Assembly (NCBI GenBank): GCA_944363565.1 | Contig: CALVUI010000001.1 | Span: forward strand, 1 to 64,000 | From: an uncultured Bacilli bacterium | Lineage (GTDB): Bacteria; Bacillota_I; Bacilli_A; RFN20; CAG-826 | Length of the DNA stretch: 64,000 bases | Reading direction: 5' to 3' | Shown: positions 43,280 through 52,486 of the stretch, piece after piece | Numbering within the stretch: the stretch's first letter is position 1 | Layout: each line of letters opens with the position of its first letter | Translations under genes and position numbers: made by a program | The notes under the pieces: generated by a model | The model's input: the letters and a program-made list of their open reading frames with translations, nothing else | Database searches by the model: none | What the model was told of the DNA's origin: nothing

Positions 43280-44659
43280 ATGTCGATTCTGGCTTCTTAT
43301 CTACTGCCGCATCCACCCCTCGCCATCCCCGAAATCGGGAAGGGGAAGGAAGCGATGCTTCCCTCCGTCCTCGAAGCTTTCCGCTCGGTCGGAAGGGAGA
43401 TCGCTTCTTTGGCACCCGATACCATCATCATCGCCACCCCCCACGCCGAAAGCTATAGCGATTACATTCAGCTTAGCGACGGGGAAGTGGGGATCGGTTC
43501 GATGCATGACTTCGGGCACCGGGAGATCAATTATCGGTTCCTCTATGATCGGGAACTCTCGGACGCCATATCTTCGATTGCTTCATTGCGGGGCTTTCCT
43601 GCCGGGAGCGAAGGCGGGGAGGACATGGCCCTCGACCACGGGACCATGGTGCCCCTTTACTTCATCAACCAGCATTACACCTCCTACAAGGTGGTGCGGA
43701 TGGGCCTAAGCGGCCTTTCTTCCATGGACCATTACCACATGGGGATGATCATAAGGGAAGCGGTCGAAAGGCTGGGCCGCAAGGCCGTCTTCATCGCCTC
43801 CGGGGACCTAAGCCACGTTCTCAAGGACGACGGTCCCTATGGTCGCGACCCTTCTGGGGAACAATATGACCAAATCCTCGTAAATTCTTTGAAACAGGGG
43901 GATTTTGCCAGGGTTTTGGACTTGGATCCCGCTTTCGTGAGGAAAGCCAAGGTCTGCGGACACCGGGCCTTCGCCGTTCTCATGGGAACCTTGGATGGAA
44001 AGAAACCCGACATTCGGTTCTATGGTTACGAGAATGCCTTCGGGATCGGTTACGCTTCTTTTGCATTCCATCCCAAGGAAGAGGATCCCAGTCGGAACTT
44101 CATGGCCATTTATTTGAAGGACGAAAAGGAAAAGGCCGCGAGGAAGAACGCCAAGGCCTCGCCTTATGTCCGGCTTTGCCTCGAGGCTTTGAGGAAGTAT
44201 CTCACCGAAGGGAAGATCATCAGGGTGCCCGCCGACTTCCCTCCTGAGGGGAAAAGCAAGGGGAGTTGCTTCGTCACCGTCTATCTCCATGACCAACCCC
44301 ATGGTTGCATCGGGACGATCCAACCAACCAAGAGGTCCTTGGGGGAAGAAATCATCGCCAACGCCATCGAAGCGGCCACCGACGATCCCCGTTACCTGCC
44401 CATCAAGGCCGATGACCTCGATTACGTGACCTTCAAGGTCGACGCCGTCAGGGAACTCGAGGACTGCCTCGAGAGCGACCTCAATCCCAAGAGGTATGGC
44501 CTCGTGGTTTCCTACGGGCCCCGGCGCGGGGTTTTGCTACCCAACCTCCCGGAAATCGAAGACGTCCAAAGCCAGATCGAAGTGGCCAGGGAAAAGGCCG
44601 GCATCGCCAAAAGCGCCCACCTGACCTTCCAGCGTTTCAAGATCACGACCTACCGGTAG
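43280..44659 (+). CDS. AmmeMemoRadiSam system proteins B and A fused (MEMO1-AMMECR1)
   Basis: 459 aa. The N-terminal part (about 1-265) is MEMO1-like, the class III extradiol dioxygenase fold: LLPHPPLAIPEIG, TPHAESYSDY, LDHGTMVPLYF and IASGDLSHVL carry the metal-site histidines and acids. The C-terminal part (about 290-459) is AMMECR1: GSCFVTVYLHDQPHGCIGTIQP is its diagnostic block (LRGCIG in most). In bacteria and archaea these two are usually encoded beside a radical SAM enzyme (AmmeMemoRadiSam); none is in the window. Natural substrate is unknown. The 3' end overlaps the convergent acetyltransferase by 10 bases. Confidence 0.9.
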   Translation: MSILASYLLPHPPLAIPEIGKGKEAMLPSVLEAFRSVGREIASLAPDTIIIATPHAESYSDYIQLSDGEVGIGSMHDFGHREINYRFLYDRELSDAISSIASLRGFPAGSEGGEDMALDHGTMVPLYFINQHYTSYKVVRMGLSGLSSMDHYHMGMIIREAVERLGRKAVFIASGDLSHVLKDDGPYGRDPSGEQYDQILVNSLKQGDFARVLDLDPAFVRKAKVCGHRAFAVLMGTLDGKKPDIRFYGYENAFGIGYASFAFHPKEEDPSRNFMAIYLKDEKEKAARKNAKASPYVRLCLEALRKYLTEGKIIRVPADFPPEGKSKGSCFVTVYLHDQPHGCIGTIQPTKRSLGEEIIANAIEAATDDPRYLPIKADDLDYVTFKVDAVRELEDCLESDLNPKRYGLVVSYGPRRGVLLPNLPEIEDVQSQIEVAREKAGIAKSAHLTFQRFKITTYR

Positions 44660-45084
44660 GTCCGATAACGCTTGTATAACCACTTGGCCAACAAGACCTT
44701 GTTTTTCCTTACTTCCCCGTCGTCCCCATAACGGTAACCTAGTTTCCGAAAATAGGGGACGAGGTCGGTCGGAGCCTCCACCGACATCATCTTGCCCCCG
44801 ATGCTCCTGGCCTTGGTTTCCAGATAAAGGAGGGCGTATTTGCCGAGTTTTTGGCATCTGACTTCCTTTAGGACCTCTAGTTGGACGATGCGGTATTCGC
44901 TGGGGGTGATTTCCCTCATGACCCCGACGGCTATGGCATGTCCGTCTTTGCCTATGACAACTCTCCAGACCGCGGTGTCCGCGTTATGTATTGGATCCGC
45001 GCCAAGGGCCTGGCAGGCCATCAGGTACTTTTTATCCTCGTGGGCGTGGAAGGAACTCTCTATCATCTTTTTTATTATCGGCAT
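44650..45084 (-). CDS. GNAT family N-acetyltransferase
   Basis: 144 aa. The acetyl-CoA fold is visible: RIVQLEVLKEVRCQKLGKYALLYLETKAR covers beta 4, the pyrophosphate loop (weak Q/RxxGxG/A form) and alpha 3, followed by VEAPTDLVPYFRKLGYRYGD, the usual end of the domain. Substrate unknown. The ATG (45084) is preceded by a TATTAT 6 bases away and no ribosome site: probably leaderless. Confidence 0.83.
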   Translation of the reverse strand: MPIIKKMIESSFHAHEDKKYLMACQALGADPIHNADTAVWRVVIGKDGHAIAVGVMREITPSEYRIVQLEVLKEVRCQKLGKYALLYLETKARSIGGKMMSVEAPTDLVPYFRKLGYRYGDDGEVRKNKVLLAKWLYKRYRTYR

Positions 45085-45101
45085 AAGAGGATAATAACGG
45101 G
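45085..45101. promoter_or_regulatory. Overlapping divergent leaderless -10 elements
   Basis: Only 17 bases separate the start codons of two divergent genes. GATAATA at 45090-45096 reads GATAAT on plus (45090-45095, 6 bases before GTG 45102) and TATTAT on minus (45096-45091, 6 bases before ATG 45084). Each is a good -10 with the spacing seen at the other leaderless genes; -35 elements are weak and would lie inside the opposite gene. Confidence 0.6.
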
Positions 45102-45764
45102 GTGAAAAAGTTCTTCGATTACTTCAGCCGGACCTTCAGCCGCGAATACCATCCTTACAAGATCCCGGCCTTCGGCTTTGCCCTTATTGGCCTTGTCTTC
45201 TTTTTGACCTCCACCGTCTATTCGGCGGTCGTCGATGGCATCGCCCTCATCGGCAATCCCATGACCCTCATCAATATCCTCTTCTATCTTTTGGTTTATT
45301 ACCACCTCGTCTACTTCAACTACGTCGATAATGGTTTGGCCTACAACGGTCTCCTCTACTTCGTCTTTTCCGAGGTCATCAACACCCTCCTGATGATCCT
45401 CGCCCAAGGGGCCAATTTCATCGTCTCCCTCTTCACGATGGAACCGATCTTCATCGCCGCGACCTTCCTGCAGCTGGCCTTCACGGTCTTGACCGCCGTC
45501 AGCGGCATCTTCCTCTACATCCGTTCGAGGGCCTATGTGAATGGCCGTTACTACAAGTGGGACGTGGTTAGGAACTGGGCCCTGGTCTTCACGATTTTGA
45601 GTGTCCTGACGGTCTTAGCCACCGTCTTCTTCCTCGCCGTCCCTTTCATCATCGATGGCCTTCCCTTTACCACCCTCTATGTCTTCATGTTCCTAGAACT
45701 CCTATCCCCGGTTTGTATCGCCCTTTCCTGCTTTTTCACCCTCATGCGCCTAAAAGGGTTCTAA
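45102..45764 (+). CDS. Membrane protein, about six helices
   Basis: Not recognised. 220 aa with six hydrophobic segments (about 24-46, 55-75, 84-104, 115-137, 160-182 and 190-212), a basic N-terminus and aromatic-rich loops (YYHLVYFNYVDNG). GTG start at 45102, 6 bases after GATAAT. No catalytic motif. It is followed by the riboswitch-controlled ATPase but is not under the riboswitch. Confidence 0.75.
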   Translation: MKKFFDYFSRTFSREYHPYKIPAFGFALIGLVFFLTSTVYSAVVDGIALIGNPMTLINILFYLLVYYHLVYFNYVDNGLAYNGLLYFVFSEVINTLLMILAQGANFIVSLFTMEPIFIAATFLQLAFTVLTAVSGIFLYIRSRAYVNGRYYKWDVVRNWALVFTILSVLTVLATVFFLAVPFIIDGLPFTTLYVFMFLELLSPVCIALSCFFTLMRLKGF

Positions 45765-45908: not shown

Positions 45909-48644
45909 ATGTACGAAAATAAAACCGTAGGCCAGACCGCCGAGGAACTCTCGGTTGATTTGAAAAACGGGCTTTCTTTGGAGGAAGTCGAAAAAAGGCG
46001 GGCCAAGTACGGCCTCAACAAACTCGCGGAGAAAAAGAAGAAGTCTCCGATCATGCTTTTTTTGAGCGAGTTCAAGGACCCGATGGTCATCGTTCTCTTC
46101 GTGGCCGCCATCATCTCCTTGGTCCTCGCCATCGTGGAGACGGTCAAGGATCCGGCCAATGCCGAATTCACCGAATACCTCGACGTCCTCATCATCTTTG
46201 CCGTCGTCATCCTTAACGCCATCATCGGGACGGTCCAGGAAATGAAGGCCGAAAAAGCCCTCGAGGCCTTGAAGCGGATGTCGGCCCCGACCGCGACCGT
46301 GAGACGCGAAGGCAAGATCTACCAGAACATCAAGGCCGAGGAACTGGTTCCCGGCGACGTCGTCATTCTCGAAGAAGGTCGCAATGTCCCGGCCGACCTC
46401 CGTCTTACCGCCGCCCACTCCCTCAAGGCAGACGAATCGAGCTTGACCGGGGAATCGGTCCCGGTCGAAAAAGATGCCTCCGTCGTCTTGACCGACGGGG
46501 TCGGGATCGGCGATAGGGTCAACGAAGTCTACATGTCGACCCCGGTCGTCTACGGCCGCGGGGAAGGCGTCGTCATCGCCACCGGCATGAACACCGAAAT
46601 CGGCCACATCGCCTCGATGCTCCAGGGCGGGGAAGAGGAAATGACTCCCCTTCAGAAGAAACTCGCCTCCCTTTCGAAGTTCTTGGGTTATCTGACCCTT
46701 GGGATCGTCATCGTCATTCTGGCGGTCCAGTTGATCTACGCCGCCGTCGACGCCACCATCGGGGACACCTGGGGCGATGCCCTCCTCACCTCGGTCGGTC
46801 TGGCCGTGGCCGCCATTCCGGAAGGCTTACCGGCCGTCGTCACCATCGTCTTGGCCCTCGGCATGCAGAAGATGGCCAAGGTCAATACCATCGTCCGCCG
46901 CCTGGCCTCGGTCGAAACCCTCGGGGCCGTCTCCGTCATCTGCAGCGACAAGACCGGGACCCTGACCCAAAACAAGATGACCGTCGTCGCCGACTATGCG
47001 GATGGTATCTACGAAGACGGGGAGAACCTCGGCAAGACCGAAGCCAGCCGCCTATTGGCCCGTGGCATGGCCCTTTGCAGCGATGCCTCGGTCGAAAACG
47101 GGATCTATGGCGATCCGACCGAAGTGGCCCTCGTCCAATTTGCCCATGACCTCGGGATGCCCAAGAGCCAGCTCGAAAAGGAAACCCCGCGGATCGACGA
47201 ACTTCCCTTCGACTCGGTTAGGAAGATGATGTCGACCAAGCACCAGACCCTCGAAGGGGCCGTGGTCTACACCAAGGGGGCCATGGACCACGTCCTCAAG
47301 CACACCACCAAGATTTTGAAGGACGGCAAGGCCGTTCCCATCACCGAGGAAGACAAGGCCGCCATCGTGGCCGCTTCCAACAAGATGGCCTCGAAGGCCT
47401 TACGCGTCCTCTCCCTTTCCTATCGTGACGACGGCCAGCTCGAAGAAGAAAACCTCACCTTCGTCGGTCTGGTCGGGATGGTCGACCCCCCGCGTCCGGC
47501 CGCCAAGAAGGCCGTCGATGTCTTGAGGGGCGCCGGCATCACCACCATCATGATCACCGGTGACCACAAGGACACGGCCTACGCCATCGCCAAGGAACTG
47601 ACCATCTGCGATAACCTCGACCAGGTCATGTCCGGCGACCAGATCGATGCCTGCAGTCCGGAAGAACTCCAGGAAAAGGTCAAGACGGTCCGGGTCTTCG
47701 CCCGGGTCTCGCCGGAGAACAAGGTCGAGATCGTCAAGGCCATCAAGGCCAACGGGAATATTGCCGCCATGACCGGCGACGGGGTCAACGACGCCCCGAG
47801 CCTCAAGGCCGCCGACATCGGGATCGCCATGGGCATCACCGGGACCGACGTCGCCAAAGGGGCGGCCGACATGGTCCTCACCGACGACAACTTCACCTCG
47901 ATCGAAAAGGCGGTCGAAGAGGGCCGTGGAATCTACACCAACATCAAGAAGACGATCTACTTCCTGCTCTCGAGCAACATCGGGGAAGTGATCGCCATGT
48001 TCGTGGCCATCCTCATCGGCCTCCCGACGCCGCTCATCGCCATCCACCTGCTTTGGGTCAACCTCGTGACCGACAGCCTCCCGGCCGTCGCCCTCGGGGC
48101 CGACAAGAAGCCCGACGACATCATGCACGACCAGCCGCGGGATCCCAAGGAATCGCTCTTTGCCCACGGCGGCTACTTCGTGATCGTCGGCTATGGCATG
48201 GCCATTGCCCTCGCCACCCTCTTGGCCTTCCTCATCAAGCCCTGGACCGAGGGTTGCTTCACCCTCGAAGCCATCCAAGGCTACTTCAGTGACGAGATCA
48301 AACTCGAAGAAGCCCAATCGATGGCCTTCACGGTCTTGGCCTTCTCCGAGCTCTTCCACATGCTCGGGATGACAGATACCCGCCACACCTTCTTCCGGGT
48401 CTTCAAGGACAAGAACAAGATGCTCTGGATTGCCTTCTTCGTCGGGATGGCCCTCCAGTTCGCCGTCATCGAGATCCCGGGTGTCAACCAGGTCTTCAGC
48501 GTCTTCACCCTCCACGACGAACCGATCGACTATGCCTATGTCTTCGGCTTTGCCGTCATCCCCCTCGTGGTCCATGAGATCGTGGTCTTCGTCAACTTCA
48601 TCATCCGTCTGATCAAGAAAAAGACGCCAGCCAAAGCGAAATAG
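45909..48644 (+). CDS. P-type (P2A-like) cation-transporting ATPase, probable Mn2+ exporter
   Basis: 911 aa. Actuator domain with the TGES loop (LTGESVPVEK, about 178), phosphorylation site Asp347 in CSDKTGTLTQNKM, nucleotide domain, hinge TGDGVNDAPSLKAADIGIAMG (about 620-640), ten hydrophobic helices and the P2A helix-4 sequence AAIPEGLPAVVTIVLALG. SERCA/PMCA-like overall. The Mn2+ riboswitch upstream argues for Mn2+ (or Ca2+/Mn2+) efflux, as for Lactococcus YoaB. Shine-Dalgarno GAAAGGA precedes the ATG. Confidence 0.9.
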   Translation: MYENKTVGQTAEELSVDLKNGLSLEEVEKRRAKYGLNKLAEKKKKSPIMLFLSEFKDPMVIVLFVAAIISLVLAIVETVKDPANAEFTEYLDVLIIFAVVILNAIIGTVQEMKAEKALEALKRMSAPTATVRREGKIYQNIKAEELVPGDVVILEEGRNVPADLRLTAAHSLKADESSLTGESVPVEKDASVVLTDGVGIGDRVNEVYMSTPVVYGRGEGVVIATGMNTEIGHIASMLQGGEEEMTPLQKKLASLSKFLGYLTLGIVIVILAVQLIYAAVDATIGDTWGDALLTSVGLAVAAIPEGLPAVVTIVLALGMQKMAKVNTIVRRLASVETLGAVSVICSDKTGTLTQNKMTVVADYADGIYEDGENLGKTEASRLLARGMALCSDASVENGIYGDPTEVALVQFAHDLGMPKSQLEKETPRIDELPFDSVRKMMSTKHQTLEGAVVYTKGAMDHVLKHTTKILKDGKAVPITEEDKAAIVAASNKMASKALRVLSLSYRDDGQLEEENLTFVGLVGMVDPPRPAAKKAVDVLRGAGITTIMITGDHKDTAYAIAKELTICDNLDQVMSGDQIDACSPEELQEKVKTVRVFARVSPENKVEIVKAIKANGNIAAMTGDGVNDAPSLKAADIGIAMGITGTDVAKGAADMVLTDDNFTSIEKAVEEGRGIYTNIKKTIYFLLSSNIGEVIAMFVAILIGLPTPLIAIHLLWVNLVTDSLPAVALGADKKPDDIMHDQPRDPKESLFAHGGYFVIVGYGMAIALATLLAFLIKPWTEGCFTLEAIQGYFSDEIKLEEAQSMAFTVLAFSELFHMLGMTDTRHTFFRVFKDKNKMLWIAFFVGMALQFAVIEIPGVNQVFSVFTLHDEPIDYAYVFGFAVIPLVVHEIVVFVNFIIRLIKKKTPAKAK

Positions 48645-48654
48645 CATGACTTAT

Positions 48655-48681
48655 GTCCCTAATGCGTGTATCGTTAGGGAC
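48655..48681. repeat. Perfect inverted repeat before tRNA-Thr
   Basis: GTCCCTAA (48655-48662) and TTAGGGAC (48674-48681) flank an 11-base loop. It lies between the ATPase stop and tRNA-Thr, 3 bases from the tRNA, and has no T-run. It may terminate the ATPase mRNA weakly, or be an operator or processing site. Confidence 0.6.
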
Positions 48682-48684
48682 GCT

Positions 48685-48760
48685 GCCGCCTTAGCGCAAC
48701 TGGCAGAGCAACGGTATCGTAAACCGTAGGTTGGGGGTTCGATTCCCTCAGGCGGCACCA
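48685..48760 (+). tRNA. tRNA-Thr (CGT)
   Basis: Acceptor GCCGCCT/AGGCGGC, anticodon stem ACGGT/ACCGT with loop ATCGTAA, anticodon CGT (reads ACG), T-arm GGGGGTTCGATTCCC and encoded CCA. Marks the left edge of an AT-rich region; I find no copy of its 3' end downstream. Confidence 0.95.
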
Positions 48761-48772
48761 TCTTTAAAAAAC

Positions 48773-48807
48773 ACCTATAATGCCCAAGCATTATAGGTAA
48801 TTTTTTT
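48773..48807 (+). terminator. Terminator of tRNA-Thr
   Basis: ACCTATAATG (48773-48782), loop CCCAAG, CATTATAGGT (48789-48798), followed by AATTTTTTTAT. Ten-base-pair perfect stem. Confidence 0.92.
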
Positions 48808-49259
48808 ATCAAAAATTACCAATTCGTGCTCACTATGTCGCGTCCTGAAATTTTTAGGGTCCTATCGTGACCGTCGAAAATAGTCAAAAATACCTCAAAA
48901 AGTTCGAACCACCGCAATACGCACACCGCAATAGCACTTCGGGTTCGAATTTTCGCAAACTATAAATATGGATATAAAAGAAAGAGGATTTGTCATATTG
49001 ATCTAGCCACCGCGGAATCACAATTTCTGAAAAAATCTTTGTTTTAGTGGAAATTGAATATTCAATTCAGCCATCGAAGCTTAATTCAAGGCTAAAAAGG
49101 ATAGATGGAACAGTGGCTACGATCATTGCTTATGCGACTTTGACTAGGTATAAGTTGGACTATGAAGCGATGGTCAATAGTGCCCATTTTATCGAAACTC
49201 TTGACTTTTGTCGGAGGGGGTATACTTTTAGATTGATTATTTTGATTTGAGGTGTGGCA
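48808..49259. other. AT-rich spacer without a supported gene
   Basis: About 450 bases of lower GC than the rest. A 67-codon frame at 49047-49250 is open but has no ribosome site, no recognisable domain and unlike codon use; I do not call it. The stretch holds the repeat module at 48902-48949. Confidence 0.45.
48902..48949. repeat. Nested direct repeats: GTTCGAA flanking two ACCGCAATA
   Basis: GTTCGAA occurs at 48902-48908 and 48943-48949; between them ACCGCAATA occurs at 48911-48919 and 48925-48933, 14 bases apart. The pattern resembles an operator or a protein-loading site and lies upstream of the island membrane gene. Confidence 0.6.
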
Positions 49260-50402
49260 ATGAGTAAATATGGTGATAAGTTTGAAAAGGCTTTAGAGCG
49301 AGTTTTAAAAATCAAGTTTAGAGTAAGACTAATAGCGATAATAATTTGTTTAGCTATCCTTGCCTTGGATTTAATCCTCACTTTTTCATTAATGTTTATT
49401 GAAAATGACAAAGGGCAAGCAATAATTAACGATCTAATTGGTGAATCAGAAGCCCTCGTTTACGTTTTAGGCGTTTTAATGTTAATTGGAATATTTTTTC
49501 CTATAGGAATTATTTTATATTGTTTATTAAATAAAATTCGCGTTAAATCAATCTTTAATATAGTAATGAATAGAACCTGCAGCATTGCTTATTACCTTGA
49601 TGGAAAAGAAGCAAGTAAGTCTCTAAAAAAAGAATTTAAAATCAGATTGAAAGCCAAAGATCGAGATTGGATTATTAAAACTACGGATGCTTATTACGAT
49701 AAGTGCGAAGAACTTAAGAAAAAATATGAAATGTGTCCAAATGAATCAGAAAATGAAAGGAGTGGAAAAGGCGGATTCGATGGTTGGCTACTTCAAGAAA
49801 TCGGCTGGTTCTTGCTTGGCTTTTTAGTCACTTTCATAACAATAGGAATTTGCTTCCCGGTTGCTTATTGCTGGATGCTCAGATGGAACTCCAAACATAC
49901 CTTATACGATGGTAAGCGATTAACCTTTGATGGCAAGGCCAGTCAATTAATTGGTAAGTGGATATGTTGGCTATTATTATGCATTCCTACTATTGGAATA
50001 TTTGCATTATTTATTCCAAAGAAGCTGATGAATTGGAAAGTGTCACATCTTCATCTTGCAGATGAGCAACCTTATCTTGGTGGGATCTTTAAAGCCAATC
50101 CAATTGTTTATGTTTTAGTTATGATAGGATGTTCATTACTTAATCTTTTAACTCTAACGCTGTTGAAACCAATATTCGTTACTTGGAAGAATAGATACAT
50201 TCAAAATAGACTTGTCATTGATGGAAGAAGAATGGAATTCGATGGCAATGGTATACAACTATTAGGAAAGTACATACTTTGGTCCTTGCTGAAAATTATT
50301 ACTATCGGAATCTATGGTTTCTTCGTTCACATCAGAATGAAAAAGTGGATTTCTAAGCACACCCATATGAAACCAGGATACGCCCAAATAAAAGTTATCT
50401 AA
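49260..50402 (+). CDS. DUF898-like membrane protein with internal repeat
   Basis: 380 aa. Two N-terminal helices (about 22-45 and 62-88), a charged soluble part (about 100-170), and then two related modules of about 90 aa (about 180-275 and 285-380): each has a hydrophobic helix, a W-N/R..H-T-L..DGKRLTFDGKASQLIGK or V-I-DGRRMEFDGNGIQLLGK turn, a second helix with IGIF/IGIY, and a basic W-containing end. This is the DUF898 (YjgN) pattern; function unknown. ATG 49260 has GAGGTG upstream; a GTG two codons earlier is possible. GC is far below the window average and codons end in A/T, a sign of transfer. Not a shadow frame. Confidence 0.78.
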   Translation: MSKYGDKFEKALERVLKIKFRVRLIAIIICLAILALDLILTFSLMFIENDKGQAIINDLIGESEALVYVLGVLMLIGIFFPIGIILYCLLNKIRVKSIFNIVMNRTCSIAYYLDGKEASKSLKKEFKIRLKAKDRDWIIKTTDAYYDKCEELKKKYEMCPNESENERSGKGGFDGWLLQEIGWFLLGFLVTFITIGICFPVAYCWMLRWNSKHTLYDGKRLTFDGKASQLIGKWICWLLLCIPTIGIFALFIPKKLMNWKVSHLHLADEQPYLGGIFKANPIVYVLVMIGCSLLNLLTLTLLKPIFVTWKNRYIQNRLVIDGRRMEFDGNGIQLLGKYILWSLLKIITIGIYGFFVHIRMKKWISKHTHMKPGYAQIKVI

Positions 50403-50422
50403 TTAAGTATTAATACAATTTG

Positions 50423-50449
50423 AGAGCTCTTAATCGGGCTCTTTTTTTG
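50423..50449 (+). terminator. Terminator after the DUF898-like gene
   Basis: AGAGC (50423-50427) and GCTCT (50438-50442) followed by TTTTTT. Short stem but long T-run. Confidence 0.65.
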
Positions 50450-50625
50450 CTCGAATTTAGAAAAAGGAGGAGTTTCTGCGCGATTTTTAAAAGAAAAAAG
50501 AAGAAATTAGAGAATTTTGATGCTATAGGTTTGATTAGCGATATCGCTCTTCCTTTGACGCCATTCAGAGGGAAGATAACAAACTCGGACGTCGTTCTTA
50601 TATGCATCGATAGGATAGCCAGAAT
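50450..50625. other. AT-rich spacer, no supported gene
   Basis: A plus-strand frame of about 70 codons is open here (start 50420) but begins in the terminator and shows only a basic, non-conserved composition; no gene is called. Confidence 0.4.
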
Positions 50626-50876
50626 GTGGTAATGCCATTCAATAGAGAAGGTTTTGATAAGACAACCAGAAAAACAACCACGACACAACCAGAAAACATA
50701 GAAGAGGAAATAATTCAACTAATTAAAAATAATGGAAATATTTCGAGAAAAGACATGGCAATTGTTTTGCATAAAACAGAGGGAAGCATTAGGCATTATC
50801 TAAAAAATTACAGGAGCGAAAGATTGTCAAGCATTCAGGGCCTGACAAAGGCGACTATTGGGAAATAATCAAATAA
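50626..50876 (+). pseudogene. C-terminal remnant of an ATP-binding COG2865/AlbA-type regulator, frameshifted
   Basis: The frame reads MPFNREGFDKTTRKTTTTQ, an acidic helix and a winged-helix (IIQLIKNNGNISRKDMAIVLHKTEGSIRHYLKNY), as in the C-terminus of COG2865 proteins. The family ending (I-K/VKHSGPDKGDYWEIIK) is present too, but in the next frame (from about 50823 to stop 50876): one base is missing near 50820. The N-terminal AlbA and ATPase parts are gone. A decayed fragment. The intact homologue class is represented by the gene at 52593. Confidence 0.62.
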
Positions 50877-50986
50877 AAATAAGAATAGAAGATTTTTCTT
50901 AAGACATTAAAGGCGTTCGCTTTCCAATTTTGAGGGCATTTAAGGCGTTTTCCAAGCACATATTGAAAGCAATGGTTTGATACAGT

Positions 50987-51417
50987 GAAAATCGCTGGTC
51001 TAACCTTGATTACCAGCTTTTCATGCCGATGGTGCGGCAGGAAATCTCTTTCGGGGCCAAGAGCGAAGAATACGCAGCGGAGATCGCCGAACTGTTCGGG
51101 GTAAAGCACTTATGGAACGTCACCCGCAGTCCCTCTCCGAAGGCCAGAAGCGCCGCGTATCGATAGCCGCCGTCGCCGCCCGCGAACCGGAAGTTCTCCT
51201 TTTGGACGAACAGACGGTGGGGCAGGACTTCGACGGACTTTGCGCTTTGGTGGGGATATTGAACAAGTTGCACATGCAGTCGGGCAATACGATGATAACC
51301 ATTACCCACGATGTGCGCTGTGCCGAGGCCCTGTGCGACAGGGCCTATCTCATCGCAGACGGCATGGTTGCCAAGCGCGGCGGCAAGGAACTTGTACGGG
51401 AATACTTTATGCCGTGA
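50987..51417 (+). pseudogene. Truncated, frameshifted ABC transporter ATPase (EcfA/CbiO-like)
   Basis: The first part (from about 50987) reads NLDYQLFMPMVRQEISFGAKSEEYAAEIAELFGVKHL, the Q-loop region of an energy-coupling-factor ATPase. The second part, from 51112 in another frame, gives RHPQSLSEGQKRRVSIAAVAAREPEVLLLDEQTVGQD and ITHDVRCAEALCDRAYLI, i.e. signature, Walker B (with DEQT for DEPT) and H-loop. The frames meet near 51105-51115. The Walker A half is absent. GC is higher than in the AT-rich DNA on its left. Non-functional. Confidence 0.75.
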
Positions 51418-51438
51418 AGGAGGGGAAAAAGAATAGGC

Positions 51439-51462
51439 TTGGGGCCTTGGCCCCAATTTTTT
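51439..51462 (+). terminator. Terminator after the ABC remnant
   Basis: TTGGGGCC/GGCCCCAA (51439-51446 and 51449-51456) with a TT loop, then TTTTTTC. Five bases later CGTGAATG/CATTCACG (51467-51474 and 51480-51487) forms a second hairpin with a T5 loop. Confidence 0.82.
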
Positions 51463-51550
51463 CTTGCGTGAATGTTTTTCATTCACGGGGCTATCACCAA
51501 CCCATCCTCAAAAGACGTAGACTATGGAGGGGTTCATCCCCTTATTTGTT

Positions 51551-51562
51551 TATATAAGCCTT
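51551..51562 (+). promoter_or_regulatory. Leaderless promoter of the esterase-like gene
   Basis: TATATA (51551-51556), 6 bases, ATG 51563. No -35 consensus and no Shine-Dalgarno site. Confidence 0.5.
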
Positions 51563-52486
51563 ATGAAAGAAAAGTTGCCTTCCAAAGTCCATGCAGTTTC
51601 CGAACTCTTCTTTGATCCCTATTTGAAGGAACAGACACCTTGGCTCCTGAATGAGGGAGGGGAGAGGTTCGATCTAAGTAAGCTTAGGGGTTATGAGACC
51701 GGCAAGGCCTTCGGCCTCCCCTTTTCGACCCTGAGGGAAGTCCTTTCCTTCCTTTTGAAAGAGAAAGACGATCATTCCTTTAAGATCGTTCCTTTGGGTA
51801 AGGGAGTGGCCGCCTTGATGTTCTTCGTCGATAGAAAAGCCCCCACCGCCATCATCACCCCGGGCGGGGGCTATGCCTTCGTTTCCCTTTATAACGAGGG
51901 CATCGATTACGCCTTGGCTTTAAAGAAGCATGGCTTCAATAGCCTGATCCTCAAATACTCTTGCCTTGGAGGGGCGGCTTATCCTAGGCCTTTGGAGGAA
52001 GTCGCCACTTCCATCAAGTTGGTGCTAACCTCGGGACTAGGGAACGGGGATTATTTCCTTATCGGTTCCTCGGCCGGTGGCCATCTCGCGGGTCTCTTTG
52101 CCTCCAGGGCCTTTGAGTTTGGGGTCAGGGCCCCTAAGGCCGCCATCTTGGCCTATCCGGTCATTACCTTAAGCAATCCCACCCACGTGGGGAGCAGGCG
52201 TTATTTTCTCGGGGAGAAGAGAAACGACTTGGAGGAGAGAAAGAGATTCAGTGTCCAGAACAACGTCACTTCGAGTTATCCCCCGACCTATATCTGGGGT
52301 TATAGCCAAGACGCCGTCGTTCCTCCGAATGGAAGACACCTGATGGTGGAGGCCTTGATGCAAAACAGGGTCCCTTATAAGGAGAAGGAAGTCTCCGGGC
52401 CCTTTCATGGGGTGGGATTAGGCAAAGGAACCCTCGCCGATGGCTGGTTCGAGGAAGCCCTCGCCTTCGTGAGGCCCTACCTTTGA
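51563..52486 (+). CDS. Alpha/beta hydrolase, BD-FAE/acetylesterase type
   Basis: 307 aa from ATG 51563, no signal peptide. The oxyanion part TPGGGYAFVSL (HGGG-like), nucleophile elbow IGSSAGGHLAG (Ser about 181), acid in WGYSQDAVVPP and base His in GPFHGVGLG are the BD-FAE (esterase/lipase) catalytic set. Substrate may be acetylated sugars, but this is inference. The upstream in-frame codons from 51524 lie before the -10. GC and codon use return to the window norm here, so the right edge of the AT-rich island is near 51.0-51.4 kb. Confidence 0.85.
   Translation: MKEKLPSKVHAVSELFFDPYLKEQTPWLLNEGGERFDLSKLRGYETGKAFGLPFSTLREVLSFLLKEKDDHSFKIVPLGKGVAALMFFVDRKAPTAIITPGGGYAFVSLYNEGIDYALALKKHGFNSLILKYSCLGGAAYPRPLEEVATSIKLVLTSGLGNGDYFLIGSSAGGHLAGLFASRAFEFGVRAPKAAILAYPVITLSNPTHVGSRRYFLGEKRNDLEERKRFSVQNNVTSSYPPTYIWGYSQDAVVPPNGRHLMVEALMQNRVPYKEKEVSGPFHGVGLGKGTLADGWFEEALAFVRPYL

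Follow-up and report, generated by a model that had tools for sequence, protein, structure and literature searches.

Probable back-to-back promoters between two divergent, predicted leaderless genes in an uncultured Bacilli bacterium

Background

Leaderless genes with a -10 box about 12 bp upstream have been well described (PMC3160421; PMC12340547, the latter for Deinococcus-Thermus), and a 2011 survey gave the Firmicutes an average of 4.2% leaderless genes, with a range of 2.4-16.6% (PMC3160421); the counts reported below for a single genus are on a different basis. Bidirectional promoters with symmetric -10 elements are common in E. coli, where binding in the two directions is mutually exclusive and the commonest distance between start sites is 18 bp, 10 and 23 bp also being common; in five such promoters that were tested, the basal activity did not suffice for competition (PMC12825309). 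Judged by titles and the opening parts of abstracts, we found nothing on divergent leaderless pairs that share one -10 box.

Here we analyse a divergent gene pair in a 64,000-nucleotide stretch of DNA (the window; contig CALVUI010000001.1 of assembly GCA_944363565.1, positions 1 to 64,000) from an uncultured Bacilli bacterium (genome G000). In an initial annotation the two genes, encoding a GNAT acetyltransferase and a membrane protein, had been described as leaderless and as served by one shared element, GATAATA.

Genomes and methods

The window's genome is 1.26 Mb in size, and the named members of its genus are known from assembled metagenomes, several being of rumen origin. The sampled stretches of DNA came to about 584 kb for the window's genome and to 280-400 kb for four genus mates. 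Genes were predicted from codon usage with a homemade gene finder, so individual predicted starts may be in error; such errors would hardly create a peak at a single -10 distance. A hexamer was accepted as a -10 box when it matched TATAAT in at least five of six positions, with A2 and T6 fixed. Candidates were compared with a promoter matrix trained on 71 leaderless-type promoters, the two starts at issue having been left out; since the training promoters had been picked by the same hexamer rule, the scores rank candidates and are no independent proof. The aligned promoters are T-rich 21-23 nt upstream of the -10 box but have no clear -35 hexamer, and Rfam gave no RNA element at the spacer.

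The gene pair and its spacer

The features of the locus are as follows.

44650-45066, minus strand: GNAT-family acetyltransferase gene (Pfam Acetyltransf_1), start placed by alignment of genus homologues
45067-45084, minus strand: six-codon extension MPIIKK, probably promoter DNA; absent from homologues; promoter score 2.4 bits
45072-45097: perfect inverted repeat TTATTATC-N10-GATAATAA, containing two -10 boxes that face away from each other
45074-45079, minus strand: GATAAT, predicted -10 box of the GNAT gene, 7 nt upstream of ATG 45066; 6.1 bits
45087-45090, plus strand: GAGG, possible Shine-Dalgarno core, 11 nt upstream of the GTG
45090-45095, plus strand: GATAAT, predicted -10 box of the membrane gene, 6 nt upstream of the GTG; 8.5 bits
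45091-45096, minus strand: TATTAT, supposed shared minus -10 box and candidate second GNAT promoter with an 18-nt leader
45102-45764, plus strand: gene for a 220-aa membrane protein, GTG start, present in 26 of 37 genus genomes

Between the two longest open reading frames the letters run CAT-AAGAG-GATAATA-ACGGG-GTG, with a spacer of 17 bp (AAGAGGATAATAACGGG) in which GATAATA occupies 45090-45096, between an ATG at 45084 on the minus strand and the GTG at 45102 on the plus strand. GATAAT on the plus strand and TATTAT on the minus strand (45096-45091) overlap by 5 bp, and each stands 6 nt from its codon; at the level of the letters, then, codons, gap, overlap and distances are all as initially annotated. 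The inverted repeat is the sole match of its kind in the window, where 0.10 would be expected when up to three mismatches are allowed.

Two observations were made on the surroundings. The open reading frame at 43280-44659 joins a LigB/Memo-like domain to an AMMECR1 domain. Further to the right, 48001-52000 has a G+C content of 0.434, against 0.53-0.58 elsewhere in the window, with a tRNA gene (48685-48757) near its beginning; this stretch is possibly foreign DNA.

Leaderless-type promoters in the genus

In 464 kb of the window's genome, a -10 box exactly 6 nt before the start is found at 13 of 66 divergent genes and at 1 of 204 operonic ones, and a hexamer matching at least 5/6 stands at that distance from 0.13% of internal ATG/GTG codons. 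Shine-Dalgarno cores show the opposite distribution (69% of operonic genes vs 21% of divergent genes), and the 16S rRNA tail carries a normal anti-Shine-Dalgarno sequence, CACCTCCTTTCT. Among 73 leaderless starts GATAAT is the second commonest hexamer (10 cases); TATTAT is rare (two cases, one being the 45084 site). Promoters of the leaderless type, with a TATAAT-like hexamer 6-7 nt before ATG or GTG and G+C-rich bases in between, are common in the genus (window and L049-L068). Leaderless transcription as a feature of the genus is, as far as sequence can tell, well supported.

The starts of the two genes

The plus-strand start at GTG 45102 can be assigned firmly from the reading frame: this codon is the sole start candidate ahead of the homology-matched region, and the gene can start no further upstream because there is an in-frame stop at 45084-45086. 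The protein has no match in Pfam or NCBIfam. Its GATAAT lies within the 6-8 nt used to recognise a leaderless -10 box, and given the frequency at internal codons it is far above chance. We regard the predicted leaderless start of the membrane gene as well supported.

The start of the GNAT gene is a different matter. A further ATG in its reading frame, at 45066, is codon 7 of the longest frame, and in an alignment 19 of 20 genus homologues have a methionine at exactly this column, typically in the context M[IV]xxxF; in the remaining homologue, a weak one from G004, the methionine is one residue off. Twelve of the 20, including that of the closest relative, G032, have no start codon further upstream. 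ATG 45066 has a GATAAT of its own (45079-45074), again within 6-8 nt, and the intervening bases, AAAAAAG, are unlike the usual G+C-rich ones; no Shine-Dalgarno core was found upstream of this start. The start at 45084, by comparison, scores below every one of the 71 training promoters, and it was rejected on this low score and on the absence of the MPIIKK extension from homologues.

The GNAT gene thus probably starts 18 bases further in than 45084, and, since its homologues start at the methionine of codon 7, the real intergenic gap is probably 35 bp. The idea that a single 7-bp element serves two genes 17 bp apart is therefore probably wrong, the GNAT gene having both an inward start and its own -10 box. 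Of the two leaderless starts initially annotated, that of the membrane gene keeps its support, whereas homology and promoter score speak against the one at 45084.

Conservation of the divergent pair

The divergent GNAT/membrane-gene pair was found in 13 genus genomes, and in all of them a -10-like hexamer lies 6-10 nt upstream of the membrane gene (all 13 at 4/6 or better, 11 at 5/6). The GNAT side is variable: in G032, G034, G030, G023, G033 and G013 the -10 hexamers of the two strands overlap within the spacer, and in G016, G010 and others the two genes have separate hexamers. No -10 box stands 6-9 nt from the GNAT start in G034, G030, G023, G033 and G013; the nearest good one, 17-25 nt upstream of that gene, is the symmetric element shared with the membrane gene, and TATTAT in the window, at 24 nt from the GNAT start, has a similar place. 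Conservation of GATAATA between the genes had been proposed as a check, and its outcome is mixed: in G032, the closest relative that keeps both genes, the letters are missing, and a different symmetric -10 element, AGTATAGT, stands at the same place.

Layouts similar to that of the window, with gaps of 35-38 and boxes 11 bp apart, are found in G032 and G031. In the few close divergent leaderless-like pairs available (G000 45066/45102, G032 with gap 35 and G031 with gap 38 among them), boxes either overlap or stand 10-11 bp apart, about one helical turn, and we saw no pairs between these two classes up to a gap of 34 bp.

In several genomes where no divergent GNAT gene was found (G006, G007, G019, G026 and others), the membrane gene comes directly after an open reading frame on the same strand, its start a few bases from the preceding stop, and at these loci (L008, L009, L011, L012, L013, L016, L017) no -10 box is adjacent to it.

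Two promoters or one

The explanation that we favour, with moderate confidence, is that the spacer holds two back-to-back promoters, each a GATAAT 6-7 nt from its own start codon. These short distances suggest that both mRNAs are leaderless. The GNAT mRNA would run leftwards from 45066 and that of the membrane protein rightwards from 45102, and both would be translated as leaderless messages. The boxes face outwards, separated by 10 bp, and the start sites would lie about 36 bp apart, so that two RNA polymerases could presumably not occupy them together. The initially proposed exclusion of simultaneous binding would thus follow from this spacing too, and the expression in competition that was expected from it would count only with strong expression on one side.

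A true bidirectional promoter is unlikely in the window, yet it is a serious rival because the GNAT-side boxes vary among relatives. Here GATAATA would be read both ways, with start sites at 45102 and 45084; the GNAT mRNA would have an 18-nt leader and be translated from ATG 45066, and the left GATAAT would be a later addition or unused. The six genus mates with overlapping hexamers agree with this, as does the predicted distance of 18 bp between start sites, which is one of the bidirectional spacings (about 10, 18 or 23 bp) and the commonest one in E. coli (PMC12825309). For the same reason, calling so minimal a joint extreme was too strong. Symmetric -10 elements such as AGTATAAT or ATTTTATAAT are, moreover, enriched between divergent genes (17 of 91 pairs, vs 5 of 95 one-directional promoters; Fisher p = 0.006, with the split by offset chosen after the data were seen). 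This enrichment, however, concerns other offsets: that of GATAATA/TATTAT occurs in 17 of 109 divergent and 9 of 95 one-directional leaderless promoters, which is not clearly an enrichment. Obviously, every NATAATA holds TATTAT on the opposite strand, and the overlapping TATTAT in the window is for the most part a side effect of the sequence GATAATA. An overlapping opposite hexamer together with a start-like codon 6-8 nt beyond, serving no known gene, is seen in 5 of the 95 one-directional promoters, so the coincidence at 45084 is unsurprising and the minus box is not far above chance. TATTAT is also a poor -10 box in the window's genome, and the 18-nt leader would have no Shine-Dalgarno core. 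Another -10 box lies nearer the homology-supported GNAT start.

It is improbable that the membrane gene has an ordinary leader, with GAGG as its Shine-Dalgarno sequence and transcription beginning inside the GNAT gene. The 11 nt between GAGG and the GTG do fall within the distribution of operonic Shine-Dalgarno distances, if in its tail, but this explanation leaves aside the high-scoring GATAAT at exactly 6 nt and the -10-like hexamer that relatives with the divergent pair keep near the membrane gene. Least probable of all is the initial version, a shared GATAATA with the GNAT mRNA beginning at AUG 45084 and six extra residues on the protein, which has the exact 6-nt spacing on both sides in its favour and the homologues and the promoter score against it.

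A closer fit at the truB locus

The idea of a shared box fits another locus much better than it fits the window. In the window's genome, truB and a gene for a TtcA-like PP-loop protein diverge with 22 bp from ATG to ATG (L143:856-883 = G000:C1:504856-504883), and this spacer, CATggagcaATTTTATAATgtccccATG, is built around one symmetric -10 element, ATTTTATAAT, whose overlapping hexamers are each 6 nt from an ATG, at positions that agree with homologues; both starts are leaderless-like. The spacer is again 22 bp long in G032, and 23 bp in G036. At this locus seven further genus mates carry an overlapping pair (ATTATAAT or AGTATAAT), in some cases with one of the two leaders longer. Among the loci studied, this one illustrates the idea of a shared box best. 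We tentatively suggest, as a real possibility for this gut Bacilli genus, that a single symmetric -10 box can make up all of the DNA between two divergent leaderless genes whose start codons coincide with the start sites. The arrangement is clearest at truB (22-23 bp, three species) and at the GNAT/membrane-protein pair of G032 (23 bp), and it possibly holds in the window.

Comparison with known systems

The results point to a Bacilli lineage whose leaderless initiation is frequent enough to let divergent genes share or abut their -10 boxes and leave hardly any intergenic DNA. A single point change should then affect two genes together, so that competition between polymerases would be easy to test, as would the way in which divergent pairs originate. 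The locus also illustrates that a start codon picked by length of the reading frame can yield a false shared promoter.

As in the bidirectional promoters of E. coli (PMC12825309 and earlier work cited there), the site in the window has -10 hexamers that overlap on opposite strands, a predicted distance of 18 bp between start sites and polymerases that would exclude each other. In contrast to them, its start codons would coincide with the start sites, and its GNAT gene probably uses a second, separate -10 box. As in known leaderless genes (PMC3160421; PMC12340547), the -10 box is close to the start codon, here 6-7 nt before ATG or GTG, and Shine-Dalgarno cores are depleted, although the lineage belongs to the Bacilli and not, as in one of these studies, to Deinococcus-Thermus (PMC12340547). 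The site in the window thus brings together two known kinds of arrangement, leaderless genes on the one hand and competing divergent promoters on the other, and in doing so extends both modestly.
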